A stretch of DNA of 64,000 nucleotides, taken from the NCBI GenBank assembly GCA_945881735.1, contig CAMCVF010000002.1, positions 62,001 through 126,000 on the forward strand, in the 5' to 3' direction. The notes beneath the pieces were generated by a model. The model was not told the origin of the DNA and ran no database searches. It saw only the letters and a list, made by a program, of their open reading frames with translations. The position numbers and the translations under genes are program-made. Position 1 is the stretch's first letter; every line of letters starts with the position of its first letter. This document shows positions 9,321-32,396 of this stretch, piece after piece. This DNA is from Methylotenera oryzisoli. GTDB taxonomy: Bacteria; Pseudomonadota; Gammaproteobacteria; Burkholderiales; Methylophilaceae.

Positions 9321-9755
9321 CTAAAGGTATTGCATAGTTAACGTTAGCACATTCCTACCATCTTCACGCTCGTACTTTAGGCGGTCTGACATTCTTTGAA
9401 TGATTCCGACACCCAATCCGCCAGGGACAACTTCATCGAGTGTCTTGGGTAACTCTTTGGGGGTAAATTTCAGTGGGTTAAATGGAATGCCTGAATCTGT
9501 GATGGTAAGATTAGCCTCTGCGCCATTAACCAACGCCTGGATAAAGAAGCTTAGTGATATTTGCGATTCTTTTGCCTCCGGACCACCGTGCATAATAATA
9601 TTAATGAGGACTTCATCAAGGCAGTGATCGAAAGCTCTAGCCTTATTGGCGGGCACATGGTATTGCTCAAGCAGGCCACTGAGCCAATTATTCGCTACGC
9701 CAACACCTTTAAGACTAGCCTCAATGTTTATTGACTCTAAGGGATGCGTAAGCAA
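9321..9755 (-). CDS. RsbW-type anti-sigma factor / serine kinase (HATPase_c_2)
   Basis: This small GHKL-fold ATPase belongs to the family that binds a sigma factor or another target and phosphorylates a STAS antagonist. The N-box is HCLDEVLINIIMHGG with Glu48 and Asn52. The G1 box is DSGIPFNP and the G2 box GGLGVGIIQRMSD. Start is a TTG at 9755, five bases after the stop of the STAS gene, so the two are translated from one message; no better start with a Shine-Dalgarno sequence was seen. It is the last gene of the leftward signalling cluster. Its partner is most likely the STAS protein immediately upstream. No sigma factor is in the window, so the output is unknown. Confidence 0.85.
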   Translation of the reverse strand: MLTHPLESINIEASLKGVGVANNWLSGLLEQYHVPANKARAFDHCLDEVLINIIMHGGPEAKESQISLSFFIQALVNGAEANLTITDSGIPFNPLKFTPKELPKTLDEVVPGGLGVGIIQRMSDRLKYEREDGRNVLTLTMQYL

Positions 9756-9760
9756 ATAAT

Positions 9761-10108
9761 TTAAACCGAAACGAGAGAAGCTTGATTAGCCTCTGACAGG
9801 TTAGTAAACATCGGAATTAAAGCGCTGATGCCAGTTGCCTCTAAGCTTTCAGCTACCGATTCATTATCCCCCACAAACAAAACCATGCGACCACCGTGTG
9901 CTTTAAGGTTTTTCGCATTCACCACCAGTAAGCGAATTCCTAATGAGGCGAGAAAAGTGACTTTAGAGATATCAACCACCATCCGACCACCCTGAAAGTT
10001 ACTTAATAAAGAAAATTTTATCCCAATAGCATCAGACTCTGGGCCATCAAGACGACCGTCAATTACTACATATCTTATTGAATCAGTATCATTGAAGTGG
10101 ATGGCCAT
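9761..10108 (-). CDS. STAS-domain anti-sigma factor antagonist
   Basis: This cytoplasmic switch protein of the SpoIIAA/RsbV type has 115 residues and a single STAS domain. The expected phosphoacceptor is Ser55 in TFLASLGIRLL, the conserved loop before the second helix. Unphosphorylated STAS proteins sequester the RsbW kinase; PP2C phosphatases remove the phosphate. The gene lies between a receiver-PP2C phosphatase gene upstream and the RsbW-type kinase gene downstream, giving a full partner-switching set. A plausible ribosome site (AGGAAA) is placed about 8 bases before the ATG. The 280-base gap to the phosphatase gene may contain its own promoter, but none was obvious. Confidence 0.88.
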   Translation of the reverse strand: MAIHFNDTDSIRYVVIDGRLDGPESDAIGIKFSLLSNFQGGRMVVDISKVTFLASLGIRLLVVNAKNLKAHGGRMVLFVGDNESVAESLEATGISALIPMFTNLSEANQASLVSV

Positions 10109-10389
10109 AATAGGTATTTCCTAGGGTGTGTTAGTTTAAAAAAGTGACTCAATAATACCCTAAGATTATGAATTTTTTATAAAAAAACAATTAAACCGAT
10201 CTAAAACTTTAATTTTTAAATTGGCCGACATAATGGCGTTCTGCTTTCATCTTTAATTAATAATATCGACGCTCAAAGCGCGTGTCTTTAAAGAGAGTGT
10301 TGCTGTAAGTGAATTGAAGGCCTCAAAAGCAAAAGTTAGATTTGGCGGCTTTGTCTCTATTTCTAGCAGCAATTAAAAAGGCGGCCGAA

Positions 10390-11547
10390 TTAGGCACGAT
10401 GAATATTAATTTGAAGCAGTGAAAAATCATCCTCAAATGGACCTTCTGTCGCTTGAAGTGCTTTCATCGTTTTAAGAATACTATCGACATGTGTTGTTTT
10501 AATATCAGTCATTTTTTTCATAATGTCAGTATATTCAATCAGTGTCACCATCTCTCCACCTGTCTTTTCTATCTCATAGACCCCGTCACTGTAAACCGTG
10601 AGTTGATTGTATTTCTTCAGCGGTAAGATTGCTTCTTTAAAGCTTGAGTCTTCCATAAATCCAATGGCCATATTGCCCGTCATCAATTCCAACAGTTCTG
10701 TTTTGTCTGCGCTGTCCCCCGTCCTGATAAAAGCAGGCGGATGTGCAGCACTGGCATAAGTGAGCGTATGGTCAGCGCGGTTATAAACGCCATACCACAT
10801 GGTAAAGAACTTATTATTATGATCTTCCATTAAAAAGGCGTTGTTAATCGCCGCCAAGACAGAGGCTGGCTGTTTAAAATCTGCTGCTTTTAACGACTGG
10901 GACCTCAGAGCATTAATCGCGGAAACCGACATCAAAGCTGACCCAACACCGTGCCCACAAACATCGAGCAAGTAAATCGCAAGGTGATCCGGATCAACCC
11001 AATGGTAACCAAAAGCATCCCCACCTAAAGCCGTCGAAGGGATATGCTTCCATCTCGTGACAATCTCCCCGTCAAGTTCGGCAGGAAGCGCACTAAGTAT
11101 ATAGTCAGCGGCTTCATTAATTTCAGTCGTTAACATTTGTTGGCTCAGTACTAGAGCCTTCTTTTGCCGGTGCATTGTGATATGCGTGTAAATTCTAGCA
11201 AGTGCAATCGGCGGGCTTACTGGCTTGGTAATATAGTCAACTGCTCCAAGCTTTAGGCCTTTTTCTTCATCTTCAGCTTGTGACATTGCTGTTAAGAAAA
11301 TAATGGGAATCTCTCGCGTTTTGTCATCCGCCTTTAATCTTCGGCAGACTTCATGCCCATCCATCTCCGGCATCATAATATCAAGCAGAATTAAATCGGG
11401 AGGATTGTCAGAAAAGGCAATCTTTAAAGCTTTCTCTCCTGAGGTTGCTGCCCTAACCTTATAATCATCCTGCAATAAACCAGTCATCAGGGTTAAATTG
11501 GCGGGGGTATCGTCTACAACTAAAATTGATGGTTTAGATTCCAACAT
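10390..11547 (-). CDS. response regulator receiver-SpoIIE/PP2C serine phosphatase
   Basis: The N-terminal receiver domain spans residues 6-125, with phosphoacceptor Asp56 in LILLDIMMPEMDG and the conserved Lys in ITKPVSP. After a linker helix comes a PP2C/SpoIIE phosphatase domain from about residue 165 with the metal-binding segments GGDAFGYHW, DVCGHGVGSALMS, YSDGVYE and EDDFSLL. By family logic the histidine kinase gene directly upstream (10 bases) phosphorylates the receiver, which then controls dephosphorylation of a STAS protein. This is the RsbU/RsbP or HsbR role in partner switching. Length is 385 residues. Confidence 0.92.
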   Translation of the reverse strand: MLESKPSILVVDDTPANLTLMTGLLQDDYKVRAATSGEKALKIAFSDNPPDLILLDIMMPEMDGHEVCRRLKADDKTREIPIIFLTAMSQAEDEEKGLKLGAVDYITKPVSPPIALARIYTHITMHRQKKALVLSQQMLTTEINEAADYILSALPAELDGEIVTRWKHIPSTALGGDAFGYHWVDPDHLAIYLLDVCGHGVGSALMSVSAINALRSQSLKAADFKQPASVLAAINNAFLMEDHNNKFFTMWYGVYNRADHTLTYASAAHPPAFIRTGDSADKTELLELMTGNMAIGFMEDSSFKEAILPLKKYNQLTVYSDGVYEIEKTGGEMVTLIEYTDIMKKMTDIKTTHVDSILKTMKALQATEGPFEDDFSLLQINIHRA

Positions 11548-11556
11548 TGTCTCAAC

Positions 11557-14500
11557 CTAACTTGTTGCCAATGCAAGTGCTTTTTCAAAATCAAAATCAA
11601 GCAATGCTTCGGTCATATTGTTAAAAATTACTTCACTAAAATGGGCTTTAAAAGCCGACTCATGTAGCTCTAAATAGATGTTCGCATCAGTATCATCATC
11701 TTTAAGAAGCTCGATAAACTTATCAAACACTTTTTTATCAATAGGCTTCTTAACCCTATTACTCGGAGATGTTGAAGTTTCACTGGAGCCAACTGGCAAT
11801 GCACTAGATATTGCTTCAACCATACTGATTTGAGCAACAGCAAAAGTTTCAAACTCCTGCATAAGCTGATCTCGATCATTATTCAGCTTCACCAACTTCT
11901 CTATGCTATCTGCCATCGCTTGCAAGGCACTAGCCCCAATATTACCATTCACGCCTTTAAAAGTATGCGCAATCCGCTCAGCCACTTCCTGATCATTCAT
12001 TGCTAAAGCATTTCTGAGATCCGACACGGCAGTATGTCCAGTCTCAACATATTTCTTTAGCATGTTGAGATAAAGGGGCATCTTACCCATGACGCGCTTT
12101 AGTCCCAACTTCGTGTCCAGCCCTACGATTGAGTCTAATCCAGTAGTCTGATTAATAGCCTCAACCTCTTTTATTTGCTTCGCTTCTTTGACTAGAGGGG
12201 ATGTCTTAGGCTTAATCCATTTAAGCAATGCATTAAATAAGTCATCGGGATCAATCGGCTTCGCTACGTGGTCATTCATACCAGCTTCAGCACATTTTTC
12301 TTTATCCTGATCCATTGCATTAGCAGTCATCGCCAAAATAGGAAGATCTTTAAATTGATCAAGCTTTCTAATCTCTTTAGTCGCTGTTAAGCCATCCATC
12401 ACTGGCATTTGCATATCCATTAAAACAATGTCATAAAGATGCTGACTCACCATCTCAACAGCTTCTTGTCCGTTGTTAGCAATCTCAACCACAAAGCCTT
12501 CGCTTTCTAATAAGCCAAGAGCTACCTCTTGATTAAGCTCATTATCTTCCACGACCAAAATTTTAGCTCCTAAAATGGCTGATAACTTCTGTCCTAACTC
12601 AGGCGCCTCTTGGTTGCTCCTATCATCGTCATGTGCCTCCCCTAAAATCCTTACAACAGAATCAAATAAAATAGACGCATTGACTGGCTTAATCAATATT
12701 TCATCTAATCCAGCCGCTTCAGCCTCACGAATCACATCTTCACGGCCATAAGAAGTAACCATAACCATGTGTGGCTTATTATCAAGGTTGAGTTTATTGA
12801 TGGCTGATGCTGCCTCAAACCCATTCATGCCTGGCATCTGATAATCTAAAAATACAATTTCAAATGGTGCGCTAGTAAAAGCTGCTTTTTTCACTTCCTC
12901 CACTGCTTCTGCGCCACCTGAAACTTGCTCAACCACAAAAGTCATACCTCTCAACAGATCGTCAAGTACATTACGAGCAATTTCGTTGTCATCAACCACT
13001 AGGACTTTTTTACCCCGAAGCTCATCACTTGGAAGCAGTTTTCTTATCGCCCCCTTGGCTTTTCCTAAGTGCGCAGTGAACCAGAACGTACTACCCTTGC
13101 CCGGCTCACTATCCACCCCCACCTCACCGCTCATGAGATTGGCTAATTGTTTAGCAATCGCCAAACCAAGACCTGTTCCGCCATATTTACGACTGGTTGA
13201 AGTATCCGCTTGTTGGAACGATTGGAACAGGCGCCCTCTTTGTTCTTCAGTTAAACCAATCCCAGTATCTCTCACTCCAAAATGCACAAAATAGTCCTGC
13301 TCATTTTCTTCAAGAACTTTAGCTGTAATAACAATCTCACCCTTTTCAGTAAATTTCACTGCATTATTCGCATAGTTAATTAACACTTGACCAAGTCTCA
13401 ATGAGTCGCCATTCAAGACGGAGGGAAGCTTGCCATCGATATCAAACACAAGTTCCAAACCCTTATGTGCGGCTTTTTCAGCGACTAGGTTAGCGACCGT
13501 ATCAAACACTTTAGACACTTCAAAGTCACTATGTTCGATCGTTAATTTACCCGCTTCAATCTTAGAAAAATCTAAGATATCGTTAATAATGCCCAGAAGA
13601 TGCTGGCCTGAACCACTAATTTTTTTAATGTAATCCCGTTGCCGTGGATTTAGGTCTGTTTTTAAAGCCAAATGAGACATCCCAATGATGGCATTCATCG
13701 GCGTACGAATTTCATGACTCATATTAGATAAGAAATCTGACTTCATGCGCGTCGCATCTTCAGCCTTATCCATGGCTTCCTGTATCTCAGTAACGTCAAA
13801 GAACCAGCCTAAATAGCCCTCTTGACCATTAAATTTAACAGGGATATGAGAAGCAATAACCTGCACAGGTTCCCCCGTAATCTTACGTAAAGCGAAGCGA
13901 CGATTGAGTATACTTTTCCCATTTGAAAGGCCCTCTAAAATAATTTTAAGGTCTTCAGGGTCCGTGTAGATTCTCTTCATATCAATCGAATCAATATCTT
14001 CTAGTGCGAAACCAAACATAGAGGCGTAGGACTGGTTAGCAAATAAATAGCTATTTTCATGCGGGTGCTTAATACGCATGGCTGCGGGACTAGACTCTAA
14101 AATATACCTAAAACTTTGCTCACTCTCACGGATGCGATCTTCAATTAATTTACGATCGGTTATATCTCTAATCGAAACACAAACACAGGAACCTCGCCCA
14201 CTAAGACTTGGCAGCACTGAAATTGATGTTTCAATTGGAAACTCTGTCTCATCCTTTTTTATCCCTTTTGGATCAATCAATGATTCAACCTTAAGAAGGC
14301 TATATCCAGAAGATTTCAAGTGTATTGGCAATAAATCGTCTGCGTGCTTCCCAATAAGGGCTCCTTTTTCATAACCAAACGCTTCCTCAAGCATAGTATT
14401 ACTCAAGATAATAATTCCTGAATCATCTAATACCATCATCCCATCAGGCGCAGATTCAACAATACCGCGGTACCAAGCCTCGGTTGTTTTCATTTCAACT

Positions 14501-15897
14501 TGTTGCGCTTCAAGTTCAACAGCCTGCTCTTCCATTTGGGCCGCTTGAATTTCCATACGCTCTGCTTGTTTCTGCGTCTCTTCTAATAATTTCTGAGTTT
14601 TAAGATTTCTCTCAAGCATCTCAATACTAATGGCTAGTAAAGGAAATAAATCTTCCAAAAGGGTCTTTTGTCTCATTGTAAAAGCATCAAAACTTGCAAG
14701 TTCAACAACACCTAAAACACGCCCATCCAACATCACTGGCAAGACCGCAATGTTTCTTGGCATTGCCTCACCCAGTCCCGAACTAATTTTTATATATTCA
14801 TCTGGTGCATTACTAATGGTAATAGGGGCCTTTTCCATCGCACACTGACCAACTAAACCCTCCCCTATCTCAAAATACTGTTTAAATTCTTTACGCTCAT
14901 TGCAGCCATAACTGCCTAACAGTCTAAGTTGATTTTTAGTGTCTAGGATATACACAACTCCGCGACCTAGATTAACTAATGGAGCAATGCTTGACAGTAG
15001 TATTTTAGAAAGATCAACAAAAGTCGTTGCGCGTTGGAGCTCATTCGAAATTTCACCCAGATGCGATTTCACCCAGCTTTGATCATCCATTTTTTGAGCA
15101 CTTTTTTGAAGCACTCCAATAGAAACTGCCAGCTCTCCTATTTCGTTAGGATAATCGGTGTGCGGGACATTCATATCAAGTTGACCTGAAGCAATATCTT
15201 TAACTGCTGCCTGAAGTCGGTTAGATGGTCTTCTAATAGAAATACCAATAAATAAGACACAAAGCAAACTTATTAATATGCCGAAAATAACAAAACCAAC
15301 GGTAATCAATAAACTTTGCTTATATAACTCAAGCGCACCTAAGGAATTCATCTCGGCAACACGCTCATTTTGGGTTGCAATTGCAATTAAAGCATTATCA
15401 GCTGCCTGGAAATTTTCAATAAATGCTCTATTCGTTAAAATATTAATGACATCCAAATTATTGGATTTTCCACTATTAATGACACCAATGACGCGATCTA
15501 TATCTTGATTATATTGGGTAAAATGAACATCGAATTCTGAAAATTTCTTTAAATCATTATCATCAAGAATGTATTTTTTTGACAAATCTACATGTTCAAC
15601 AATTGTGCCTCTAAACTTGGCGATACTGAGCTTTAACTTATCTCTATCTTCCTGGCTTTGCACTAAGGCCATCTGCCTAATAGCGCGAGCTATATATATC
15701 AAATTAATATTGGCTTGTTTAATATTAGTAATAGCGAGCAATCGTTCACCATTTTTCTTTGCTGCCTCATTAAGTCTATGTTGAGAATAAACACCCTGAA
15801 TACCTGTTAAAAATAAGAGCAATATCACTGCGCCAAAACCTAGATTAAGCTTTGTATTTAATCTAAGTTTCTCTAACATCTTTAATATGTTATTCAT
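11557..15897 (-). CDS. large hybrid sensor histidine kinase (4HB sensor, HAMP, GAF, 2 PAS, HisKA, HATPase, 2 REC, Hpt)
   Basis: This is a 1446-residue membrane kinase. Domains in order: transmembrane helix (about 15-35), periplasmic four-helix-bundle sensor, second helix (about 195-220), HAMP, GAF (about 290-440), coiled coil rich in Gln/Glu, two PAS domains (about 470-590 and 600-715), HisKA with His728 in [14 protein letters not shown], HATPase with DTGIGL and GTGLGLAI, receivers with Asp1018 ([11 protein letters not shown]) and Asp1161 ([11 protein letters not shown]), and Hpt with His1311 ([10 protein letters not shown]). I place the start at ATG 15897 because GGAG sits seven bases before it; an upstream TTG at 15903 is less likely. 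All phosphotransfer residues are present, so a full relay to the neighbouring receiver-PP2C protein is plausible. Confidence 0.93.
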
Positions 15898-15927
15898 ACG
15901 CAATCTCCAATAAAATTCGGTTATTTA

Positions 15928-17355
15928 TTAATGCTTAGGGTCTATTAATTGCCTATTTATGTATACATTGTGAGCTACATCTATCTGATGAAAAAGTATA
16001 CTAGTTGAAGGACTCAGCATCTCTGACTGTCCTAGAAATAATAGACTATCAGCCTCTAAATGGCCATGAAACTTACGCACAAGTTGATCTTGTGCAGACC
16101 CTTTCAGGTAAATCAGTAAGTTACGGCAACTAATTAAATCATAAGACTGATCAAGTGCATAATTAAAAAGGTCTTTATTATGAAATTTGCAGGTCGATTT
16201 AATCTCATCATTAATTAAGAATGCCCCGTTTACTTTCTGAAAATAATCATCAACAATACTTGGATCCACCTCTTTAAATGCTTTTGCATCATAAATACCC
16301 GCTATCGATTGCTCTATTGCTACGGGATTTAGATCAACTCCAACAATACTAACTTCGAATGCTAGGGATAATTCCGATTTAAGCTCATTAGCGATGATTG
16401 CAAAGGTATAGGCTTCTTCGCCAGAGGCGCAACCAGCCACCAAAATTCTTAGTGTGTCCAAGTTTTTTTTTGCAAGAATTTTCTGACGAAGTTGTGCCCT
16501 AATGAGTGCGAAGGAGCTGGCATCGCGAAAAAATGATGAGAATGAGACAAGAAATAACTGCTGTATTCTAAAAATTTCTTCAATGTGCTTAGCCAAGTGA
16601 TTTAAATAATCTTCATAGGTTTCAATACCAAGAACGGACATCCTTGTATCAAGCCTACGCTTTAAAGTCTCTTCTTTGTAGCCACTAAAATCGATTTTAG
16701 TTACCTCTTTAATTAGCTGGATTAAGCTGCCAAGCGGTTGAACGGTATTATCTTTAAGGGGGGAAGAATAAGTTGGAATAGAGCGATTTTGCGTGGGAAG
16801 AATGTTATTAATCGCTGTAGATATCTCTTCAACACCTAAGATTAAATCAACAACACCTGCTTCTATAGCAGATGTTGGCATACCATTAAATATGGCCGAG
16901 TTTGGATGTTGGGCAATAGTAATACCGCCTTTTGATTTAATGGATCTGCATCCATTCGTCCCGTCTGATCCAGTCCCAGAAAGAATGACTCCAATCCCTT
17001 TCTTTTGATAAGCGGTTGCAATTGATTCAAACAATAAATTGACAGAAGGAGTTGAAAGATTGTGCGCCAATGGTTCAGATAGGACAATCTGTCCTGATTG
17101 GACAGTACCATCTACTCCTGCAGGAATTAAATATACATGATCTGGCCGTAATTCCTCATTACCAGCAACTAAAATCACAGGAATTTTGGCATAACGATTT
17201 AGTAGTTTTTCCATAAGATCGCTATGTCCGTCGTGGGCCATGTGTTGCGCAATCACATATAAAACATGTCCATTCGGATTAAATCTCGGCAGTAATGCGA
17301 ACAGAGCTTCCAATCCACCTGCCGATGCACCAATACCTACAATATATTGTGACAC
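15928..17355 (-). CDS. CheB methylesterase-CheR methyltransferase fusion
   Basis: The first 190 residues are a CheB catalytic domain without a receiver: Ser11 (GASAGGLEAL), His38 (AQHMAHDGHSD) and Asp131 (SGTGSDGTNG) form the expected triad. From about residue 210 follows CheR: the N-terminal helical domain with KEETLKRRLDTRM, then the SAM-binding domain with VAGCASGEEAYTFAI and ISCRNLLIYL. No chemoreceptor or CheA gene is nearby. CheB/CheR fusions beside hybrid kinases are a known pattern whose modification targets are largely unknown. A natural candidate here is the adjacent kinase with its receptor-like sensor. The start codon is GTG. Confidence 0.9.
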   Translation of the reverse strand: MSQYIVGIGASAGGLEALFALLPRFNPNGHVLYVIAQHMAHDGHSDLMEKLLNRYAKIPVILVAGNEELRPDHVYLIPAGVDGTVQSGQIVLSEPLAHNLSTPSVNLLFESIATAYQKKGIGVILSGTGSDGTNGCRSIKSKGGITIAQHPNSAIFNGMPTSAIEAGVVDLILGVEEISTAINNILPTQNRSIPTYSSPLKDNTVQPLGSLIQLIKEVTKIDFSGYKEETLKRRLDTRMSVLGIETYEDYLNHLAKHIEEIFRIQQLFLVSFSSFFRDASSFALIRAQLRQKILAKKNLDTLRILVAGCASGEEAYTFAIIANELKSELSLAFEVSIVGVDLNPVAIEQSIAGIYDAKAFKEVDPSIVDDYFQKVNGAFLINDEIKSTCKFHNKDLFNYALDQSYDLISCRNLLIYLKGSAQDQLVRKFHGHLEADSLLFLGQSEMLSPSTSILFHQIDVAHNVYINRQLIDPKH

Positions 17356-17515: not shown

Positions 17516-17854
17516 CTAACTAATGGCTGCAATTGCATCCTGAACGTTCGAATGAACGCCAAATAAAGCACCAAACCCGCTAATCATCATTACCTCATTC
17601 ACAGCAGCATTCACAGCACAAAGCGTTAAGGACCCTCCTAGAGATTTTGCTTTTTTAGCCGCCATTAACATCACGCGAAGTCCCTCAGAGCTGATGTAAT
17701 TAAGGTCCTTACAATCTAAAACAATTCGAGAAAAAGTTGACATCTCAGGCTCGTTAGTTTTGTCAATGAATGTTTTGGAAGTAATGCCATCGAGACGACC
17801 AATCAAACTAATTACCAACACATTATTTATCGATTCACTGCTAATTTCTAACAT
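17516..17854 (-). CDS. STAS-domain anti-sigma factor antagonist
   Basis: This 112-residue single STAS domain carries Ser55 and Ser56 in NYISSEGLRVML, the usual phosphorylation site. It is the first gene of the leftward signalling cluster, 160 bases ahead of the CheB-CheR gene, and is divergent from the ABC transporter operon that starts at 18030. It is distinct in sequence from the STAS proteins at 9761 and 28974. Being paired head to head with a transporter whose ATPase carries an RsbW-like tail makes that tail a candidate partner, which is inference. Confidence 0.88.
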   Translation of the reverse strand: MLEISSESINNVLVISLIGRLDGITSKTFIDKTNEPEMSTFSRIVLDCKDLNYISSEGLRVMLMAAKKAKSLGGSLTLCAVNAAVNEVMMISGFGALFGVHSNVQDAIAAIS

Positions 17855-24079: not shown

Positions 24080-24331
24080 GCTACATTATAGGATAGGTGA
24101 TTGTTAGCAATTTAATAAGCTCCAATCAAAATAATAAGTGCGCTAAAGTAGCCTTTGAATTTCGGTGATTTCGACCATAAACAAACATTGAGTTTAGTTG
24201 CTACCGGCCCATAATTGATATTCGAAACACATACGATAGATTAGATAAAACTCAGGCAAACGTGGTAAGTAATTTGGAAGTTTATTAAGCGTATACAAGG
24301 AACTACACGCCAGAACAGCATTATTTTGGAT

Positions 24332-25192
24332 TCAGCCTAGCTCGAAACTGGTAATGCCGTAACTCCGGGCCAGCGCCAGATCCGGCGCAATGCCGGTGTA
24401 CATGCGGGCAGTCTCGAACACTCGGCGCATGCCACATGCTTCGGCCAGCTCAACGGCGGCGCGATTGCACTCTGGCACGTCTAGGAAAAGTGGCGCCTCG
24501 CTTTCGATACCCACACATAGCGCGTCGAGTAGCGTTGCAGCAAGTACTGGACTGTCGGCAAACAGAGGACCAATCTTGTGGCCACTGCGGCAACTGCGCC
24601 GCACACCGTAACCAAGCAAACTTTCTGAGTCTATAAGGCCAAGAGCAACCGTTTTCGGCTGGCTGATCCAAGACTGCAAGAAATCGCACCGACTGGCCGG
24701 AAAGAAGCTTTGGTCGTAGGTCGCAAGTGTATCGAAGGGTAGCTCCAGTAGCGATACCAGTCGGCAATCCCCTTGCAAGTTTTTGGGCTTGGCGGCTGCC
24801 CCACCACGACCCTGATAGCGAATGTTGCGGTGTGCTAGTACAAAGCCGCTGCGGCTGTAGTTTTCCTGCTGTGCCAGCACACCATCAAGCCCGATTGTGC
24901 GAGAACCTAAGCGAGCCATTCCTGCCTCCCAGATTCTCCACCCGTAACCTTGTCCACGACAATCTGGTCGAACAATATAGAAACCAATGAAGCCAAATAA
25001 ATCGTCATACCTGAGAGCCGATATCACCGCTACAGGTTCATTGTCCAACAAGCCAACTAACATTCCATCTGGGTCAACGCTACGGAAAGGCACTGCGTCA
25101 AATAAACCAGGGTTCCATCCTTCAGACGCTGCCCAGTCTAGCGCTAGGTCGAATTCGAACAGGGTCATTGTGCGAATGGTGAAGTCTTTCAT
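24332..25192 (-). CDS. GNAT family N-acetyltransferase, GC-rich foreign gene
   Basis: This 286-residue protein has an N-terminal GNAT domain with the acetyl-CoA loop RPDCRGQGYGWRIWEAG (about residues 76-92), followed by a second domain ending in a YGITSFELG tail, as in the Acetyltransf_18-type proteins. The substrate is not known. Base use differs sharply from its surroundings: the gene is visibly GC-rich with many CGC, GCC and CTG codons, while both flanks are strongly A/T-rich. This points to transfer from a high-GC donor. The upstream 250 bases to 24080 hold nothing I can recognise. Confidence 0.85.
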   Translation of the reverse strand: MKDFTIRTMTLFEFDLALDWAASEGWNPGLFDAVPFRSVDPDGMLVGLLDNEPVAVISALRYDDLFGFIGFYIVRPDCRGQGYGWRIWEAGMARLGSRTIGLDGVLAQQENYSRSGFVLAHRNIRYQGRGGAAAKPKNLQGDCRLVSLLELPFDTLATYDQSFFPASRCDFLQSWISQPKTVALGLIDSESLLGYGVRRSCRSGHKIGPLFADSPVLAATLLDALCVGIESEAPLFLDVPECNRAAVELAEACGMRRVFETARMYTGIAPDLALARSYGITSFELG

Positions 25193-25316
25193 TGTTGTAT
25201 GTTTAACCTAATGATTAAATTTTAGTCAATTCAAATCCAAAGCAATTTTAATCCAAAAATAGATTCATACTATCTGCTTTATTTATTACAAGGTAACTGA
25301 TGCATAAAGCTTACAC

Positions 25317-25772
25317 TTACGAACCTTGCGTTTTTGGTTCTAAAATTGTTTGCCCGTGTTTTGCGGCCAGTTCAATAAGTTTTTCTCGGTCCAGGCTGTC
25401 CCATGAAATACCTTGAGCAAAATCCACAAACATCTTTGAGGCGTTCCCACGTGAAGTAACGGCAATTAATGTAGCACCGCCTTTGCCAAAGCGGAACCAG
25501 TGCGTGGATCCAGCTGGAACATGAACTAAAGTACCAGGTAATGCGACAGTTTCTATATCATCTATACCACAGTGTAACTCACCACGAATGACAAAAAAAG
25601 ATTCGTCCCATGGATGAAAGTGAGGTCCTGGACCCTTGCCCTCAGGTCCTGCTAAGTGGAATATTTCATAGTCGCCAGTATCAGCTTCTGATGCGAGAAC
25701 AGTAATTGAAAAGCCACCTACATCCAGTGGCTTATTACGTTTACTTTCCGGAACGACTAGTGGTCTAGGCAT
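25317..25772 (-). CDS. cupin-domain protein
   Basis: This is a 151-residue small beta-barrel protein. Cupin motif 1 is GPHFHPWDESFFVIRGELH, supplying two His, a Glu and a later His as metal ligands. Motif 2 is PAGSTHWFRFG with a further His. Such proteins range from metal-dependent enzymes to sugar or ligand binders; no more specific role can be deduced. It is a single gene on the minus strand between the GNAT gene and a small secreted protein gene. Confidence 0.8.
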   Translation of the reverse strand: MPRPLVVPESKRNKPLDVGGFSITVLASEADTGDYEIFHLAGPEGKGPGPHFHPWDESFFVIRGELHCGIDDIETVALPGTLVHVPAGSTHWFRFGKGGATLIAVTSRGNASKMFVDFAQGISWDSLDREKLIELAAKHGQTILEPKTQGS

Positions 25773-25881
25773 GCTTTTATTCCTAAGAGCTTTAACGACA
25801 TTGAAGTTTTAATATTCAAGATAGTTTAAATTATTTATAACTTTATAATAGAATCCACAGTTTTATTTTTGCTTTTCTGGT

Positions 25882-26310
25882 TTAAGGATTATTTTTCAAC
25901 AGTGTTCCCCAGCCCTCAATCCAATCATTACTGTTAGGATTAACGTTTGGGACTCGAATCTGCGTATCATTTGGTAGCCAAAATTCGCTCGATTGGCGGG
26001 TGCCCTTAGCATGGCACTCAGTTTTTTGTTCGCATATTTCATCCTTGCACCCAGACTGCAAAGCTTCTCCATAAACCTTTTGTATGCTAAAGCCTGAACA
26101 TGACTGATTGGCTGAACATTTACTGATGCACTCTAGAATAGAAGTATTTGACCACGTGCCATCTGGCAGTGCAAATTCGTTAGGAATTAATTTTCCTGGC
26201 ATCCAAATATAGCGAGCGTCCACTGCTGCAATTTTTTCTTGCGCCACACTTGTAATGGCATTTCCAATTAAGGTTAAAAAAATTGCTAAAATGAATACTG
26301 TTTTACGCAT
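25882..26310 (-). CDS. secreted cysteine-rich hypothetical protein (possible PAN/apple-like)
   Basis: I do not recognise the family with certainty. A clear signal peptide covers about residues 1-23 (cleavage after SVAQ). The mature part of about 119 residues has eight Cys, including CISKCSANQSCSGFSI, a spacing seen in PAN/apple-type modules, and the cluster CKDEICEQKTEC. Disulfides in the periplasm or outside the cell are likely. It lies downstream of the Rap1a-like gene on the same strand. No enzymatic residues were identified. Confidence 0.6.
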   Translation of the reverse strand: MRKTVFILAIFLTLIGNAITSVAQEKIAAVDARYIWMPGKLIPNEFALPDGTWSNTSILECISKCSANQSCSGFSIQKVYGEALQSGCKDEICEQKTECHAKGTRQSSEFWLPNDTQIRVPNVNPNSNDWIEGWGTLLKNNP

Positions 26311-26419
26311 TTAGTTTCTCCCGAAAGATTGAATTAATTAGGTTATTGATGATTGTCGTTTTGAAGAAACTATCATTCTGTTCTTACCAACGTGGTCACG
26401 CATACTCTCCAGTATAAAA

Positions 26420-26530
26420 CTACAGGTAAGCATTTACAGTTTCTTCAAAACAACTCAAATGCGGGTCAACATTTTTGCAGCCTGCCGCATTTAAGTAGCA
26501 ACAGTTTTTTAGATTAAGATTCATCCACAT
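26420..26530 (-). CDS. possible small Cys-containing peptide (36 residues)
   Basis: A 36-codon frame starts with ATG 17 bases after the stop of the Rap1a-like gene, with AGAGG about seven bases before the start. The peptide has four Cys (NCCYLNAAGC and LSCF) and no signal peptide. The good ribosome site and close spacing argue for translation, but short size and lack of recognised relatives keep it uncertain. Confidence 0.35.
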   Translation of the reverse strand: MWMNLNLKNCCYLNAAGCKNVDPHLSCFEETVNAYL

Positions 26531-26547
26531 TTTATTACCTCTCATTT

Positions 26548-26916
26548 TCATTTAAATGCACAAGGCCACTCTTTGAAAAGTGCATCGTAAACATTTGATG
26601 CAAAAGATGCATGACGTTTAGATGGATTATTTCTAACAAAGCTATTAATTGCTTTTAATCTTTCTTCAATCGTTACATTTGACGGGATACATATCTTTTT
26701 ATCGTAACTGGCATTATCTTCAACCCCTAAAATAATCCCTAAGCATAATCCTCGATTAAAACTACTGTGATTGTTAGTTTGATAAGAATATAAACACTCT
26801 TTGTTTAAGGCTTGCGTACTTAAGTCGAGTCCGTCCAATCTAACCTGCTGGGCAATAGCCGAACTTATCACTGAAAATTGCAAACAAATGAGGGCAAACG
26901 ATTTAATGAATTTCAT
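26548..26916 (-). CDS. Rap1a/Tai-family immunity-like periplasmic protein
   Basis: Residues 1-22 from the ATG at 26916 form a signal peptide (ending ISSAIAQQ). The frame stays open upstream to 26976, but that extension would bury the signal. The mature domain has the Rap1a/Tai pattern: a Cys in LCLGIILGVEDN, then KICIPSNVTIEERLKAINSFV, RNNPSKRHASFASNVYDAL and the terminal WPC. Family members such as Rap1a bind and block type VI secretion peptidoglycan amidase effectors. No such effector lies beside it, so it may be an orphan immunity protein or have another role. Confidence 0.75.
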   Translation of the reverse strand: MKFIKSFALICLQFSVISSAIAQQVRLDGLDLSTQALNKECLYSYQTNNHSSFNRGLCLGIILGVEDNASYDKKICIPSNVTIEERLKAINSFVRNNPSKRHASFASNVYDALFKEWPCAFK

Positions 26917-27049
26917 GATAGATAAAGACACATAGAATAGCTGACATTGATAATTATTTCGCAGATAAAAAACCAAACTTAGCTCACTCAGTTAAGTTAA
27001 GTTTGGTTGGATTAAAATAGTCTTACGCCATTCTAAAATGAATTACACC

Positions 27050-27460: not shown

Positions 27461-28249
27461 TTATTTTTTAACAATAGCCGCAATTCCACCCGTGTAATAA
27501 GGGGCTGAAAAGAGAACTTTCTTAGAGCGATCTTCAGTAATCGTGATGCAGGCGCCAATCATATCAACTTTGCCAGCAGCAAGCGCTGGGATCATAGATC
27601 CGAATTCCATATTCACGATTTCGAGTTTCTTATTTAGTTTTTTGGCAACTAATGAAGCAATCTCAATGTCAATTCCGACTACTTTTTGAGACCCATCCAC
27701 GAATGAGAAAGGCTCGGTGATAGCCGAGGTGCCAAATCTTAAGACTCCATCATTACCCGTTTCTATAACAGGCATTGATTTAGGCGGTCCTACTGCTGGC
27801 AGCCAGCGTTCAATCATTAGGCCGTAATCGCCGCTTGCTTTGAGATCTTGAACTACCATATCAATGGCATTTTTAAGGGCTTCATCCTCTAAACGCACTG
27901 CGAAGCCGTAATCATCATGCGTAAGCATCTCTGGAAGTACAGTTAAGCCAGGATTCTTGGCAGCAATGTTTTTTAAGATTGGCTCATCATATGCCGCCGC
28001 ATCGATTTTGCCCTGTTTGACTGCGATAGCAGAATCAAGAACTGTGTTGTAATATTGAAATTTAGCATCAGAAAACTTGGATAAAACAAGCTTATCTGCG
28101 ACGCTTCCTGTAGGCACGCCGAATTCTTTTCCACTTAGTTGACTTAATTCAGTGATTTTTTCTTTTTGTTGGCTGTTACATCCAGCTAATAATACTGTTA
28201 TCAAAAAAGCTGTTCCGATTAAAGGCAGAGTACGCCATATTTTTGTCAT
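27461..28249 (-). CDS. amino-acid-type ABC substrate-binding lipoprotein with permuted lobe order
   Basis: The lipoprotein signal has lipobox LAGC with Cys24. The mature 239 residues begin with what is normally the second lobe (SGKEFGVPTGS through GDYGLMIERW, about 36-150) and end with what is normally the first lobe (VLRFGTSAITEPFSF through ITEDRSKKVLFSAPYY, about 166-262). It is therefore one lobe 2-lobe 1 unit, the same arrangement as each half of the transporter protein at 18030-20321, and it could feed that permease. It lies 42 bases downstream of the GPP34 gene in a STAS-GPP34-binding protein operon. No permease is adjacent. Confidence 0.82.
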   Translation of the reverse strand: MTKIWRTLPLIGTAFLITVLLAGCNSQQKEKITELSQLSGKEFGVPTGSVADKLVLSKFSDAKFQYYNTVLDSAIAVKQGKIDAAAYDEPILKNIAAKNPGLTVLPEMLTHDDYGFAVRLEDEALKNAIDMVVQDLKASGDYGLMIERWLPAVGPPKSMPVIETGNDGVLRFGTSAITEPFSFVDGSQKVVGIDIEIASLVAKKLNKKLEIVNMEFGSMIPALAAGKVDMIGACITITEDRSKKVLFSAPYYTGGIAAIVKK

Positions 28250-28291: not shown

Positions 28292-28960
28292 TTAGTGAAT
28301 CAATGGAACTTGGCTAATAATTCGCTCCCAAGCTTCTTTAACAGAAGCTGATAATGAACGATTAATCTCCTCAAGATTTGCAATCTGATCAATACGATTT
28401 TGCAATCTTACCAATTCTGAACTCGATAGTAATCTGCTCATAATTTCTGTCGCTCGTAACAAGCCAATTAGCAGTGCATCGCTTGGATTGGGAATTTCAT
28501 CATTATTTAATAGTTGCATGATTCTCGACCTTACTTCCCTCTCCTCAATACCACTTGTTGCAGGATAAGCGCGAGTTTTAAGAACCCATAACAAACGTTT
28601 CTCTACCATTTGAACCACGCCTTTATTGACTAAACTTTCGATGATTTTGTCACTCAAAGTAGCGCCATGGCGTGCGAATCTGCTTAGCCAATCAGAAGTA
28701 GAAAGGGAATTTTTTTCAGCCACAATTGCAGCTAAAGCTTGATCCAGAATAGCATCTCCAGTTGCCTCTGAAGAAACAACGAATACCTTTTTGGCGTCAG
28801 TATCTAACTTTCCTTTAAGTGTTAACTCCATAATTAAAGATGCTGCAATGGCAATGTCAAACGAAAAGGGTTTGATTGAATCCAGAAGCTTCCCTGACTC
28901 ATCATCAAGCGTAATCAGTAAAAGCTCTTCAGCCAGGCTTAGTTTTTTTGAGGACGTCAT
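28292..28960 (-). CDS. GPP34 (Golgi phosphoprotein 3-like) family protein
   Basis: This 222-residue, mostly helical protein has the family start LSLAEELLLITLDDESGK, followed by IAASLIMELTLKGKLD and the C-terminal half with KTRAYPATSGIEEREVRSRI. Eukaryotic GOLPH3 binds phosphatidylinositol-4-phosphate through this fold; bacterial members are common in actinobacteria and some others but have no settled function. The gene follows a STAS gene by 13 bases and precedes a binding lipoprotein gene, so it belongs to the partner-switching module. A role as membrane-binding effector of the switch is my inference only. Confidence 0.8.
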   Translation of the reverse strand: MTSSKKLSLAEELLLITLDDESGKLLDSIKPFSFDIAIAASLIMELTLKGKLDTDAKKVFVVSSEATGDAILDQALAAIVAEKNSLSTSDWLSRFARHGATLSDKIIESLVNKGVVQMVEKRLLWVLKTRAYPATSGIEEREVRSRIMQLLNNDEIPNPSDALLIGLLRATEIMSRLLSSSELVRLQNRIDQIANLEEINRSLSASVKEAWERIISQVPLIH

Positions 28961-28973
28961 TTTATCAGCGACC

Positions 28974-29252
28974 TTATTTTTCTATTTCAATAATCTTGTC
29001 AAATCCACTCATGATCAAGAGATCTAAAATTTCAGAATTTGGTTTTAAAAGAATGAGCTTTTTATTTTGACTTTTTAAATCTTTAGCCGTTTTTAAGAAT
29101 ATTCTAAGCCCCAAACTACTAATGTATGTGAGTTCTGATAAATCAATTGAAAAAGAAGGCCCCACTTTATTTATTAGCGCTGAAATTTCAAGGTCATACT
29201 GATCGGCATTAGACCCATCAATACGTCCATTTAGTTTGTAATTTGCATTCAC
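28974..29252 (-). CDS. STAS-domain anti-sigma factor antagonist
   Basis: This is a single STAS domain of about 93 residues with the phosphoacceptor motif TYISSLGLRIF. I place the start at GTG 29252, nine bases after GGAG. A TTG at 29258 is only three bases from that site and so less likely. It heads the operon STAS, GPP34, binding lipoprotein. The RsbW-type kinase at 29684 is divergent, 430 bases away, and is the obvious partner. It is the third STAS protein of the island. Confidence 0.86.
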   Translation of the reverse strand: MNANYKLNGRIDGSNADQYDLEISALINKVGPSFSIDLSELTYISSLGLRIFLKTAKDLKSQNKKLILLKPNSEILDLLIMSGFDKIIEIEK

Positions 29253-29683
29253 GATCAATTACTCCGGAATTTTTTTATTAATATTTAAGAGTCCACACTA
29301 TACATAGATCAATTATCATAATCAACTTACCGTATATCAACAAACTATACCCAATTTAAAATATTAAGAGTGGCACGCTAGCTAGATTATTTTTTATAAA
29401 TCTTCGATGGCCACTTGCAAGCATTTGATCGCCATTTGCTGAAGTTTAAGAGCTGAATTTATCAGCGGTATGGCGCATTAACAAATAGGACAACGATATT
29501 TTAAATTACTGATCATCGTTTCTAGTTTTACTTTTTGTTGCTTGTTAAGTATGATCAGACAATATTGTTGCAAAATTTAGAACCTAATGTAGATTTCATT
29601 AAAATGTATTTTAATTTCAAAACTAGCTTGATCTAATCTCATCATATGATGAGTCAAATTGATTTTAATTAAAGCCTTTATCA
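29253..29683. promoter_or_regulatory. divergent regulatory region with two perfect palindromes
   Basis: These 430 bases separate the STAS operon (left) from the RsbW-type gene (right) and hold no gene. Two perfect inverted repeats lie close to the right-hand gene: 29598-29615 (ATTAAAAT, GT, ATTTTAAT) and 29638-29653 (CTCATCAT, ATGATGAG), the second about 30 bases before the GTG start. The first shares ATTAAAA and TGTAT with the repeat at 17901-17917. Operators for a dimeric regulator are possible. Confidence 0.4.
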
Positions 29684-30112
29684 GTGAATAATACCCAAAA
29701 AAATATACTAGAAATTTTATTGACTGGTGATCTGGCCGAGATTGATCATTTGGCGATAGCGCTTAATCGCTTTTTTGACGATGCTGGGATTGATGCATTG
29801 GTAAAGAATCAAGTAAATTTGATTCTTGAGGAGCTTTATACCAATACAGCTAATTATGGTTTTCAAGGCATTACCAATGGTGAAGTAACAATCACTCTCT
29901 CTTTAATTGATGGACAACTAGAGATGGTTTATCAAGATAACGGGATTGCATTTAATCCACTCGAAATTGAAGACCCTGATTTATTACTGGGTATCGAAGA
30001 TCGGCCAATAGGCGGATTGGGCGTTTTCTTTGTAAAAGCCTTGACTGATCAAGTTGAGTACTCTCACGTGGGTGAATTCAATCAACTCAAAATGCAAAAA
30101 AAAGTTTATTGA
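29684..30112 (+). CDS. RsbW-type anti-sigma factor / serine kinase (HATPase_c_2)
   Basis: This 142-residue GHKL ATPase has a complete N-box (ILEELYTNTANYGF, Glu49/Glu50 and Asn54), G1 (QDNGIAFNPLE, Asp85) and G2 (IGGLGVFFVKAL). It should phosphorylate a STAS partner, most simply the product of the divergent gene ending at 29252. The start is GTG without a clear Shine-Dalgarno sequence. It resembles the degenerate tail of the ABC ATPase at 20318 (EEL at the N-box, FNPLE at G1), which helps identify that tail. It is convergent with the Na/Pi cotransporter gene, 16 bases apart. Confidence 0.88.
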   Translation: MNNTQKNILEILLTGDLAEIDHLAIALNRFFDDAGIDALVKNQVNLILEELYTNTANYGFQGITNGEVTITLSLIDGQLEMVYQDNGIAFNPLEIEDPDLLLGIEDRPIGGLGVFFVKALTDQVEYSHVGEFNQLKMQKKVY

Positions 30113-30128
30113 AGAAAACTTTTTAAAT

Positions 30129-31706
30129 TCACTCGTTTTGTGTTTTCACGTTTAACATTTGTCTAATTTGCCACAAGATTCTTTCAAATACGCGAGTACT
30201 GACAAATAACGATTTCCTAATATTGATGTCAATACTTGTCTCCGAAAGCAAAGTATTACGTATGTTATCCATAAGCTGACCTTTATCCGAGGTGAGCTCC
30301 ATTAAAAAATCAGTATTTTCATCGCCACTCAATGTTTCTTCCATCAACGTCAAAACAAGATGAAGGCTTTCAATCATTGATCCGGATAGACCTTCTTTAA
30401 AATTTTTTGTAGCACCCACTGTGTTTGTGAAGTTGTTTAAGGATTCCAGTAGGGCAATAATGGCTTCGTTGTAACTTTGAAGTTGCAATACATCAGACAT
30501 CTCTTTGCCTAATTCATGATGAGAAATCTCATCGATAAATTGTTTGATTTCATTAGCTAACTGCAGATTTGCCTCATGCCTAATGCTAACTGGCATGTGT
30601 TCTATTTCGTCTGTTCTAAGAGGTTCTAGATACTTTGAAAGTGTCGAAATTAATCTTTCTTGCTCTTTTTTGACTAAACTAATTACGATATCTGGGTCTT
30701 CAATAGCTTCAGCATAGATAAATTTAGGTTTCCCTAAAGATTCTTCTTCCTTTTCTGGGTATAGTTTGTTTAATAAGGGAATGATTTTTGACTGAAATAA
30801 AGTCACCATTACGGCACCAGCAATTTGTAGGGCTAAGTAAATGACCGAAATTTGAAAACCAATTGCCACTTTGCCAGCTAATGTTGAGGGGTTCGCGATG
30901 TAGAATTTGAATAAGCTAGGGAATATGATGAACGCCGGCAGAATTAATAACAACCCGCCGAATTTTGTTAAAAACTGATAGAACGCGATTTGTTTTTGAG
31001 CGCCTGATAGATGAGAAGTAATTAAAACTAGGCTTAGACCTGAACCTGTATTAGCCCCGAATAACATAATAACTGCGGCTTCAAATGGAATGATGCCTGA
31101 CAGTACTAGGGTGATGGCAATAATTGTTACTGTTGACGCTGATTGTGTAATCAGGCTGAAAAATAAACCAATAATAAAACAGATCAATGTGGTTTCAGAG
31201 GCAAACTCAATAAATTCCACGACCCACTTAGAATCATTAAGAGAATGAGCCCCCTCCTTCACCATCCCAAGCCCTACAAATAATAAGCCGAGGGCGAATA
31301 AAATTGCAACCAGATACTTTGTTTTTTCCGCACGACCAACGTTAAACAAGTTGGCTAGCCCAACGACAGCAATTAATACAAAGCCCCCCAATCGAATATC
31401 AATTGACGCTAAGAATACGAGTAATGATCCACCTACACTTGACCAAGCGGCGATATTGAGAGCATTTTTGAATTTAAGAGCGCCGGAGTTGACTAGCCCC
31501 ATGCATACAAACGTTGAGCCACTGGTACTTTGTGTTATTGCCCCAAGCATCGTTCCCGCAAGGGCCATGCTGAAATAGTTGCCGGTCATTTTTGAGAGGA
31601 TCTGTCTCATTTTTTTGCCAGCAAGTGGCCTCATGCTGGCTGACAAAAAACTAAGTCCAGTTAAGAACAGCCCTAGCCCCGCCATCGAAGATATATAGCC
31701 AAGCAT
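30129..31706 (-). CDS. Na+/phosphate cotransporter family protein with PhoU-like tail
   Basis: This 525-residue membrane protein has about nine helices in its first 320 residues. The inverted-repeat transport motifs of the NptA/PNaS family are visible as TQSTSGSTFVCMG (about residue 60) and TQSASTVTIIAIT (about 185). Residues 345-520 are a cytoplasmic helical region of PhoU type. Members import phosphate with sodium or act in phosphate or membrane signalling. The gene is six bases downstream of the four-helix sensor gene, in one operon, which suggests the sensor and the transporter work together. Confidence 0.87.
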   Translation of the reverse strand: MLGYISSMAGLGLFLTGLSFLSASMRPLAGKKMRQILSKMTGNYFSMALAGTMLGAITQSTSGSTFVCMGLVNSGALKFKNALNIAAWSSVGGSLLVFLASIDIRLGGFVLIAVVGLANLFNVGRAEKTKYLVAILFALGLLFVGLGMVKEGAHSLNDSKWVVEFIEFASETTLICFIIGLFFSLITQSASTVTIIAITLVLSGIIPFEAAVIMLFGANTGSGLSLVLITSHLSGAQKQIAFYQFLTKFGGLLLILPAFIIFPSLFKFYIANPSTLAGKVAIGFQISVIYLALQIAGAVMVTLFQSKIIPLLNKLYPEKEEESLGKPKFIYAEAIEDPDIVISLVKKEQERLISTLSKYLEPLRTDEIEHMPVSIRHEANLQLANEIKQFIDEISHHELGKEMSDVLQLQSYNEAIIALLESLNNFTNTVGATKNFKEGLSGSMIESLHLVLTLMEETLSGDENTDFLMELTSDKGQLMDNIRNTLLSETSIDINIRKSLFVSTRVFERILWQIRQMLNVKTQNE

Positions 31707-31712
31707 GTTCTT

Positions 31713-32396
31713 TTAGCTCTCTGTCATACGAAGAATGCTATGAAGACCGATTCCGCTAAGAATAAGTGCGGCCAACATAACCCCAAGAATAAACTTTTTG
31801 AGTGACTTGTGCCGGGACTCAACACTTTGCTTAATAATACTTAGTTGAGTTTTTCCAACATCAGAAAATTTTTGAAATATGGTACCCAGATCATTGTCTA
31901 GGGCACGGTCGATTCCCCTTAGTTTTTGATCAATCTCACTAGCCCCTTCGTTATTTTCCAATGACCCCTCATTAAGCGTTTTTTTGTAAATTATTCCTAG
32001 TTCCAGATGTTTAAGACGAGCTTCCTCTATAGACTGACATATGTCTTGTTTACTTAAGGATAAACAAATTTTTTGAGCATCTTTGAGATTATTAACTACT
32101 TTGGTTTGCTCTGCCTCAAAACTTGAAAGGTAATTGAATTTATCCTTATTATCCCCTCCCCTTAGTAAAATATTCTTCCATTCCTGGACCTGGGTTTTGA
32201 AGTGTACTTTTGCTAACAGCATCTGGTTTTGTAGTTCACTAATAATAATCAACTTTGCCGATCCATCTTCATAGGCGCGGTTGATTGACCATATTGAGAA
32301 GAGAGACATGATGCCAATGAAAATAAGCATGCCAATCCAAGTCCATGCAAAAGAAATGATTTTTTTTCGTAAGTTATCGGTTTTAGTTTGGGCCAT
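31713..32396 (-). CDS. membrane four-helix-bundle sensor protein lacking any output domain
   Basis: This 227-residue protein resembles only the sensory part of a chemoreceptor: helix 1 (about 14-33), an extracytoplasmic four-helix bundle of about 165 residues with KVHFKTQVQEWKNILLRGGD, and helix 2 (about 202-220), then just a few residues. It has no HAMP, methyl-accepting or kinase domain. The protein is complete at both ends, so truncation by frameshift is not evident; the next gene, the Na/Pi cotransporter homologue, begins six bases later. A decayed relative lies at 22518-22804. It might sense a ligand and act through the transporter or through the signalling proteins nearby. Confidence 0.75.
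   Translation of the reverse strand: MAQTKTDNLRKKIISFAWTWIGMLIFIGIMSLFSIWSINRAYEDGSAKLIIISELQNQMLLAKVHFKTQVQEWKNILLRGGDNKDKFNYLSSFEAEQTKVVNNLKDAQKICLSLSKQDICQSIEEARLKHLELGIIYKKTLNEGSLENNEGASEIDQKLRGIDRALDNDLGTIFQKFSDVGKTQLSIIKQSVESRHKSLKKFILGVMLAALILSGIGLHSILRMTES

Follow-up and report, generated by a model that had tools for sequence, protein, structure and literature searches.

The window analyzed here is a 64,000-nucleotide stretch of the Methylotenera oryzisoli genome (bases 62001-126000 of contig C2; 2.02 Mb genome in 34 contigs). It contains a block of genes in which an ABC importer stands among the genes of a partner switch, and in which the ATPase of that importer carries a degenerate copy of the switch kinase, RsbW. 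Using a list of open reading frames (ORFs) and Pfam, we located all of the genes named in an initial annotation of this DNA between the gene at 6827-8722, which we take to be ppiD, and the tRNA-Asp gene at 32554-32630. The annotation had listed three STAS proteins, two complete RsbW-type kinases, a degenerate copy fused to an ABC ATPase, a receiver-PP2C phosphatase, a hybrid kinase and a CheB-CheR fusion, all of which were confirmed in their predicted positions by ORFs, Pfam and profile comparison. The permuted transporter, permuted binding lipoprotein, GPP34 protein and Na/Pi cotransporter homolog that it had also named were found in place by Pfam and alignment. The importer is encoded on the + strand by a fusion of two permuted binding units with a permease (18030-20321; SBP_bac_3 in three stretches and BPD_transp_1 by Pfam) and by an ABC ATPase gene (20318-21406), which consists of the ATPase domain proper (20318-21019) and a C-terminal, HATPase-like RsbW domain (21020-21406). 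STAS2 (17516-17854, - strand; Pfam E 1e-16) is divergent from these transporter genes. Also on the - strand lie the HATPase_c_2 kinase RsbW1 (9321-9755; E 1.1e-18; Glu and Asn of the N-box, DxG and GGxG intact), STAS1, with which it pairs (9761-10108; E 2e-11), the receiver-PP2C (REC-SpoIIE) phosphatase (10390-11547), the hybrid histidine kinase (11557-15903; 4HB_MCP, HAMP, GAF, PAS, HisKA, HATPase, two REC and Hpt domains by Pfam) and STAS3 (28974-29258; E 1.7e-13), upstream of the GPP34 gene. The second kinase, RsbW2 (29684-30112; E 1.5e-19), has intact motifs and is encoded on the + strand.

Residues 1-239 of the ATPase aligned to ArtP (3c41), identifying it as ArtP-like, and all 54 sequences aligned had the same Walker A, signature, Walker B and H-loop residues. 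The C-terminal 128 residues matched HATPase_c_2 with an E value of 0.0045, under the Pfam cut-off, when scanned alone and gave no match in a full-length Pfam scan of the ATPase; among the members scanned, no Pfam or NCBIfam model exceeded its cut-off on the fused domain, and the dead-domain profiles had no PDB sequence match. Profile-profile comparison with the RsbW kinases gave a probability of 98.3% (E 1.6e-14). A residue alignment was built from 82 fused domains (80 loci described below, the window and a Selenomonas plasmid) and 28 free-standing kinases, RsbW1 and RsbW2 included. The N-box Asn and the Asp of DxG were present in none of the 82 fused domains vs. all 28 kinases, and the first Gly of GGxG in 2 of 82 vs. 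28 of 28. The N-box Glu was kept in 79 of the 82 fused domains and in every kinase. By mapping of the chain numbering this residue is Glu49 of Bacillus subtilis RsbW, described as touching the phosphorylatable Ser of RsbV (PMC7340262). At the neighboring Ser48 position, most fused domains and most kinases have Glu. Retention of the docking Glu despite loss of the ATP site fits, but does not prove, a domain that would hold a STAS protein without phosphorylating it.

A search of bacterial genomes with one peptide pattern yielded 196 stretches, of which 136 were confirmed as relatives; the best 80 of these 136 were examined as loci, and in all 80 the degenerate domain was fused to an ABC ATPase. 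Record titles name Methylococcaceae, Nitrosomonas, Nitrotoga, Burkholderiaceae, Azonexus, Chlorobiaceae, Bacteroidetes, Geobacteraceae, Gemmatimonadetes, Verrucomicrobia, Acidobacteria, Kuenenia and Bacillota. The majority of these records come from metagenome bins, and the assignment of some contigs may be wrong; named strains or isolates among the titles are Methylobacter marinus, Nitrosomonas communis and Azonexus hydrophilus. As many of the loci are closely related, those of Chlorobiaceae above all, they are not independent of each other. The usual switch-linked layout was NMT1-like binding protein, PP2C, permuted binding units with permease, ABC fusion, STAS and RsbW, with NMT1 and a Cache-HAMP-PP2C protein confirmed by Pfam in locus L050. 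The upstream gene was a permease in 76 of the 80 loci, and the 4-bp overlap between the permease fusion and the ATPase gene in the window was reproduced exactly in 62 of 76 relatives. A STAS gene followed directly, in the same orientation, in 28 loci, at a spacing of -28 to +90 bp. Within 5 kb of the fusion (668.6 kb in total) there were 36 STAS (54/Mb), 28 RsbW (42/Mb) and 25 PP2C genes (37/Mb), vs. 1 (2/Mb), 1 (2/Mb) and 6 (13/Mb), respectively, farther out (467.0 kb); the density of STAS and RsbW genes near the fusion is thus 20- to 25-fold that beyond it. The STAS gene of the L093 cluster (13993-14385) was left out of these counts. Where 5 kb was available on both sides (43 loci), 11 loci had STAS, RsbW and PP2C genes and 20 had at least one of them. 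In a Bryobacterales bin, the product of a gene beside the permuted transporter genes (L097:4620-5816) combines a STAS domain with a phosphotransferase (APH, Pfam E 3.5e-12).

These neighborhoods bear on what the fused domain might bind. One alternative is that it binds the RsbW kinase itself, as a mixed dimer formed through the face of helix 1 and strand 1, and so recruits the kinase to the membrane or sequesters it, with STAS serving merely as substrate. RsbW is described as dimerizing via helix 1 and strand 1 (PMC7340262), and, as we read the alignment, a conserved D-[FY]-D block opens the stretch matched to RsbW helix 1. However, the gene most often found directly after the fusion is STAS and not RsbW, and it is the Glu contacting the STAS serine that was kept though the ATP site was lost. 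We consider binding of the kinase quite improbable, and a STAS protein the likelier partner.

Among 187 genomes of the same family, nine matched the fused domain and seven of these had real fusions; the match in G463 was a free-standing RsbW and that in G373 a short fragment, and both were dropped from the count. A failure of these genes to recur together would, by its own test, have refuted the initial annotation, and the idea survived. Contiguous copies of the block with the ABC fusion were present in family members from other genera (G252, G377 and G451), related clusters lacking the ABC fusion in other families (G136 and G861) and, judging by record titles, a simpler operon form in several phyla. 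In G252 and G377, which have genomes of 1.3-1.4 Mb, one compact block holds STAS, RsbW, NptA (the Na/Pi cotransporter homolog), a four-helix protein, the hybrid kinase, REC-PP2C, the permuted binding-protein-permease, the ABC fusion and the binding lipoprotein, and has no GPP34, CheB-CheR or second switch. G451 has the same genes in another order, plus CheB-CheR, and G428 has part of the block on a 7.1-kb contig. The STAS, RsbW and hybrid-kinase genes of G472 and G473 lie on different contigs from the ABC fusion, as do REC-PP2C and NptA in G472. A REC-PP2C gene directly after the ABC genes in these two genomes was rejected, since only the receiver matched; the G473 contig has a PP2C end upstream of its ABC genes. 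The REC-PP2C gene of G472 lies on contig C18, whose left end cuts a binding-protein-permease gene, and the ABC contig of this genome, C13, begins inside such a gene, so that the two contigs may adjoin.

Beyond the family, when 398 genomes drawn from the phylum were searched, the window genome's copy was the sole clear match, which indicates that the system is rare and patchy there. Weak matches in G744 and G772 (E ~1e-7) were left out, and the G744 protein (L122) fits RsbW far better than the fused domain. A plasmid search with the whole ATPase returned at least 5000 records, four of which covered over 80% of the query. The one of these that was examined, a Selenomonas plasmid, encodes the ABC fusion, a permuted binding protein and a permease, with a STAS gene 7 kb away. 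Plasmid searches with the C-terminal domains alone gave no match.

The same kind of domain was also found on an unrelated transporter. In related clusters, an NCS2 (xanthine/uracil) permease of 576-580 residues has about 140 extra C-terminal residues, which matched HATPase_c_2 under the cut-off in two loci (E 0.027 in L180 and 6.5e-5 in L201). In profile comparisons this C-terminus matched the ABC-fused domain at 96.5% (E 8e-10) and RsbW at 85% (E 6e-6). All six aligned copies kept the Glu and had Phe at the Asn position. The NCS2 fusion was present in 9 of the 187 family genomes and in two more, besides the window genome, in a draw of 250 genomes of the order, and in 10 of these 11 genomes a STAS, RsbW or PP2C gene lay no more than 5 kb away (the exception was G305). 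A single block in G136 contains the NCS2 fusion together with STAS, RsbW, NptA, a four-helix protein and one ORF that unites hybrid kinase, Hpt, receiver and PP2C. A plasmid search with the NCS2 fusion matched 432 records at less than 60% identity. The window genome's own NCS2 fusion lies ~55 kb upstream of the window start and 2.6 kb from a second STAS-GPP34 pair; in the 8 kb examined around it there was no RsbW or PP2C match. That second pair (G000:C2:1391-2358, L182; GPP34 at 1391-2062) is 62-63% identical to the pair in the window, and an alkaline phosphatase gene, like the NCS2 fusion, is found near it.

The free-standing components of the switch largely retained their characteristic residues. 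The ATP-binding motifs were intact in 28 of 28 kinases, whose profile matches RsbW 6m36 and SpoIIAB chains, and the acceptor Ser was present in 44 of 44 aligned STAS proteins, including all three of the window. In trees, STAS2 is the STAS shared with G451 (83% identical to the copy there), and RsbW2, which groups with copies from G451, L042 and L044, is the kinase shared with the related clusters. Relatives of REC-PP2C were found beside the system in G451, G252, G377, G472, G305, G307 and G096. In the PP2C alignment, the Asp of GGD and that of D-V-x-x-H-G were present in 31 of 31 sequences and that of S-D-G in 30 of 31; the last Asp pair falls in a gap for 30 of the 31. The sensor input of the phosphatase varied, from REC-SpoIIE in the window to Cache-HAMP-SpoIIE in L050 and L084. 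A single 1349-amino acid ORF of L201 comprises kinase, Hpt, receiver and PP2C, and in L084 PP2C and RsbW share one ORF. As the initial annotation had maintained, no sigma factor is encoded with the module: the contig of the window had no Sigma70_r2 match, and the genome as a whole had five over the cut-off. A Sigma70_r2 match at G000:C1:242568-242762 (L021) contains one in-frame TAG in a 101-amino acid frame and is perhaps a decayed or split sigma factor.

The permuted lipoprotein (27461-28249, - strand; SBP_bac_3 by Pfam) has the order lobe 2-lobe 1, with its residues 162-262 aligning to residues 4-104 of ordinary binding proteins in permuted alignments to PDB chains. Homologs were found in G451, G252 and G377, and a copy in G396 is cut by the contig end. 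The second binding unit of the permease fusion is collinear with this lipoprotein, which is evident from a homolog in G252 that has a single unit. Because the permuted units stand in tandem, the central part of the fusion (Pfam stretch 170-403) can alternatively be taken for a domain in the ordinary order. We further observed that residues 29-257 of the lipoprotein align to residues 99-325 of the 460-residue GlnPQ chain 6h30, apparently spanning the boundary between its two binding domains. This alignment suggests that the permutation arose by a shift of frame along a tandem array of binding domains. The permease is of the GlnP/HisM type and exceeded the cut-off of TIGR01726 (HEQRo-type); all single-substrate equivalog models scanned on the importer fell under theirs. 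The set expected of a polar-amino-acid importer is therefore present (ArtP/GlnQ-like ATPase, HEQRo-type permease and SBP_bac_3 binding protein), and its substrates would be amino acids, as judged from the families of its binding protein and ATPase.

The 80 loci have one to four permuted binding units per transporter, a number that would suit sensing, and the same genes with the same docking logic could run in reverse. The transporter would then be the sensor, its dead RsbW domain taking up or releasing STAS with the transport cycle and so setting the pool of free STAS that acts through RsbW on another output, possibly transcription, for which the five sigma-factor candidates elsewhere in the genome are at hand. 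However, the loci already have dedicated sensors (the 4HB-GAF-PAS kinase or the Cache-HAMP-PP2C protein), and the recurrent unassigned neighbors, apart from the NMT1-like binding protein, are mostly confined to Chlorobiaceae titles. A transporter acting as sensor is thus rather unlikely in our view, and we return below to the transporter as output.

Downstream of the importer, the block encodes further membrane-associated candidates. The NptA-like protein (30129-31706, - strand; Na_Pi_cotrans, Pfam E 5.1e-32) has a C-terminal tail. Its subtype, at 41% identity or more, was present in 10 of the 187 family genomes, nine of which also had RsbW; matches in G340 and G375 at 28-29% identity were excluded from this count. 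The initial annotation had proposed a statistical test of gene co-occurrence. NptA was found in 9 of 13 family genomes with an ABC or NCS2 fusion vs. 1 of 174 without (p 1e-11, uncorrected for relatedness), and the corresponding counts for RsbW were 10 of 13 and 15 of 174 (p 6.5e-8). Each of the three remaining fusion genomes has an RsbW gene that fell under the search cut. The GPP34-domain protein (28292-28960, - strand; Pfam E 1.7e-39) was found in 6 of 274 genomes of the class. It recurs with the four-helix protein, NptA, STAS and RsbW in L093, L178 and L175, the last of these from another family of the same class (G861). In the window, the four-helix protein is a 227-residue protein without an output domain or Pfam match (31713-32396, - strand). 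Its L175 relative (31% identical) matched 4HB_MCP_1 under the cut-off (E 2.6e-4), and it adjoins NptA in L023, L035, L036, L039, L093, L175-L180 and L201. Pfam gave no HATPase match in the NptA or GPP34 proteins, which are putative further outputs of the switch. Separately, an alpha-acetolactate decarboxylase gene was seen inside NptA/switch clusters at L176:4882-5607 (checked by Pfam) and, by resemblance, at L179:2400-3116 and L180:11693-12409; a family of similar appearance recurs close to five ABC loci, and title or genus places four of these in Chlorobiaceae.

Other genes of the block are less firmly attached to it. The CheB-CheR fusion (15928-17355, - strand) appears to be accessory, as it recurs at this place only in G451 among the family loci examined; separate cheB and cheR genes lie near the L093 cluster. 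The STAS1-RsbW1 pair recurs without transporters in G463 (12 kb examined). Six genes occupy the middle of the block (21490-26976), and only the CDF transporter among them was found again, in 1 of 100 loci searched. No second copy in those loci was found of two other mid-block ORFs, one Rap1a-immunity-like (26548-26976; Pfam E 4.1e-13) and one small and without a Pfam match (25882-26310). Integration of the block at the tRNA-Asp gene was considered and rejected, as no second tRNA 3′ end was present in the window with up to 1-3 mismatches.

Taken as a whole, these results lead us to favor, with moderate confidence, a partner-switching circuit with transport proteins as its outputs, in which dephosphorylated STAS docks on the dead-kinase domain and alters transport. 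An input, from the hybrid kinase here or from a Cache-HAMP sensor elsewhere, would act on the PP2C phosphatase, which would dephosphorylate STAS and raise the amount of its unphosphorylated form. This form would leave the RsbW kinase and dock on the dead RsbW domain of the ABC ATPase or NCS2 permease, much as MlaB does on MlaF, with an effect on transport whose direction (opening or closing) the model does not predict. The free-standing RsbW would in turn rephosphorylate the STAS serine, so that STAS is released and the transporter freed. Binding of STAS to the fused domain, its dependence on phosphorylation and any effect on transport are inferred from these sequence data. Since the domain is widespread, uniformly degenerate and found again on the NCS2 permease, the transporters themselves are likely to be direct outputs of the switch. 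The initial annotation's claim of a circuit built around transport proteins was thus partly supported; support did not extend to every gene of the block, to the binding lobes and the four-helix protein as its putative sensors or to the exclusion of a sigma factor as a further target. Whether a general principle applies, by which unrelated transporters in several phyla are gated post-translationally, with no transcription, by phospho-switched STAS docking on an appended dead RsbW, seems to us evenly balanced; it would cover ABC importers and NCS2 permeases, and perhaps NptA and GPP34 proteins through partners.

Several observations weigh against transporters as outputs. Among the further RsbV-contacting positions of RsbW, Lys44 and Asp42 are conserved in neither fused domains nor kinases, and at Tyr118 most kinases have H, Y or F where the fused domains have T, N or M. 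The NCS2 C-termini of the window genome and of L177 had no HATPase match in Pfam at E 0.05. The distances of STAS and fused domain gave a partial correlation of 0.77, which fell to 0.44, under the permease control of 0.60, when outliers were left out; co-evolution by this measure was not robust and was not used. Immediately following the ABC fusion in G472 and G473 is a two-component pair, an SBP-sensor kinase and a receiver protein, the output of the latter being HD-GYP by Pfam in G472. In that genome the pair, a periplasmic SBP_bac_3 hybrid kinase (L105:1452-4724) and a receiver-HD-GYP protein (L037:4774-5895) on the same contig, indicates that other signaling outputs can stand beside this transporter. 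Finally, 23 of the 43 well-flanked ABC loci have no STAS, RsbW or PP2C gene nearby (16 without a histidine kinase too and 7 with a histidine kinase only). The domain is degenerate in the same way at these loci. An RsbW-type HATPase was present somewhere in 22 of 22 genomes with switch-less loci (five with a flank of less than 5 kb) vs. 6 of 14 controls; this is weak evidence, given how common such proteins are and how crude the control is.

The switch-less loci would be expected if the switch acted on a sigma factor or other transcriptional target, with the transporters being neighbors, perhaps part of the regulon, and the C-terminal domain a leftover or a ligand-binding cis-regulatory domain. 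The sigma-factor candidates elsewhere in the genome would provide targets, and in Synechocystis the Slr1861/Ssr1600 pair is described as acting on SigC (PMC12329169). Against such a role stand the two unrelated transporters that share this kind of degenerate domain and are both found near STAS, RsbW or PP2C genes, and the uniform pattern of lost and retained residues; we regard it as improbable. Direct control of the transporters, if true, would mean that a partner switch sets nutrient uptake without transcription. As the kinase, phosphatase, STAS and likely docking domain are encoded together, also in named strains, phosphorylation-gated transport is directly testable.

Partner switches are known mainly for the control of sigma factors, and those of Bordetella (BtrU/V/W) and Pseudomonas (HsbR/HsbA) act on targets outside the classical stress sigma factors; we know of no transporter with a dead kinase domain in the latter two systems. 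Among the matches listed in a literature search, mostly open-access papers, none described a transporter that carries an RsbW-like domain. The logic proposed here is that of known partner switching, and what would be new is the class of output, transporters; a dead kinase copy on importers, often beside a live kinase, phosphatase and STAS, suggests that a switch known from gene expression can control transport directly. The PP2C phosphatase, the STAS proteins with acceptor Ser and the intact HATPase_c_2 kinases resemble RsbU-RsbV-RsbW and SpoIIE-SpoIIAA-SpoIIAB of Bacillus, from which the system differs by having no sigma factor on its contig and by RsbW copies, catalytically dead to judge by their residues, that are fused to transporters. 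The RsbW-type kinase and STAS are also like Slr1861/Ssr1600, tied in Synechocystis to the level of inorganic carbon (PMC12329169), whose target, unlike here, is a sigma factor. As in the GlnPQ and ArtPMQ importers, an ArtP-like ATPase accompanies a GlnP/HisM-type permease, with tandem permease-fused binding domains as in GlnPQ (6h30), but the binding units are permuted, lobe 2 before lobe 1, and the ATPase has an extra C-terminal domain. A precedent for the probable regulation of an ABC ATPase by a STAS protein is MlaFB of E. coli, in which MlaB binds MlaF and the regulation of MlaB, including its phosphorylation, is posed as an open question (PMC7367683). Unlike MlaFB, the present system has a polar-amino-acid-type importer, whose ATPase is ArtP-like with a BPD_transp_1 permease rather than MlaF-like with MlaE/MlaD, an RsbW-like domain on that ATPase, and kinase and phosphatase genes alongside.

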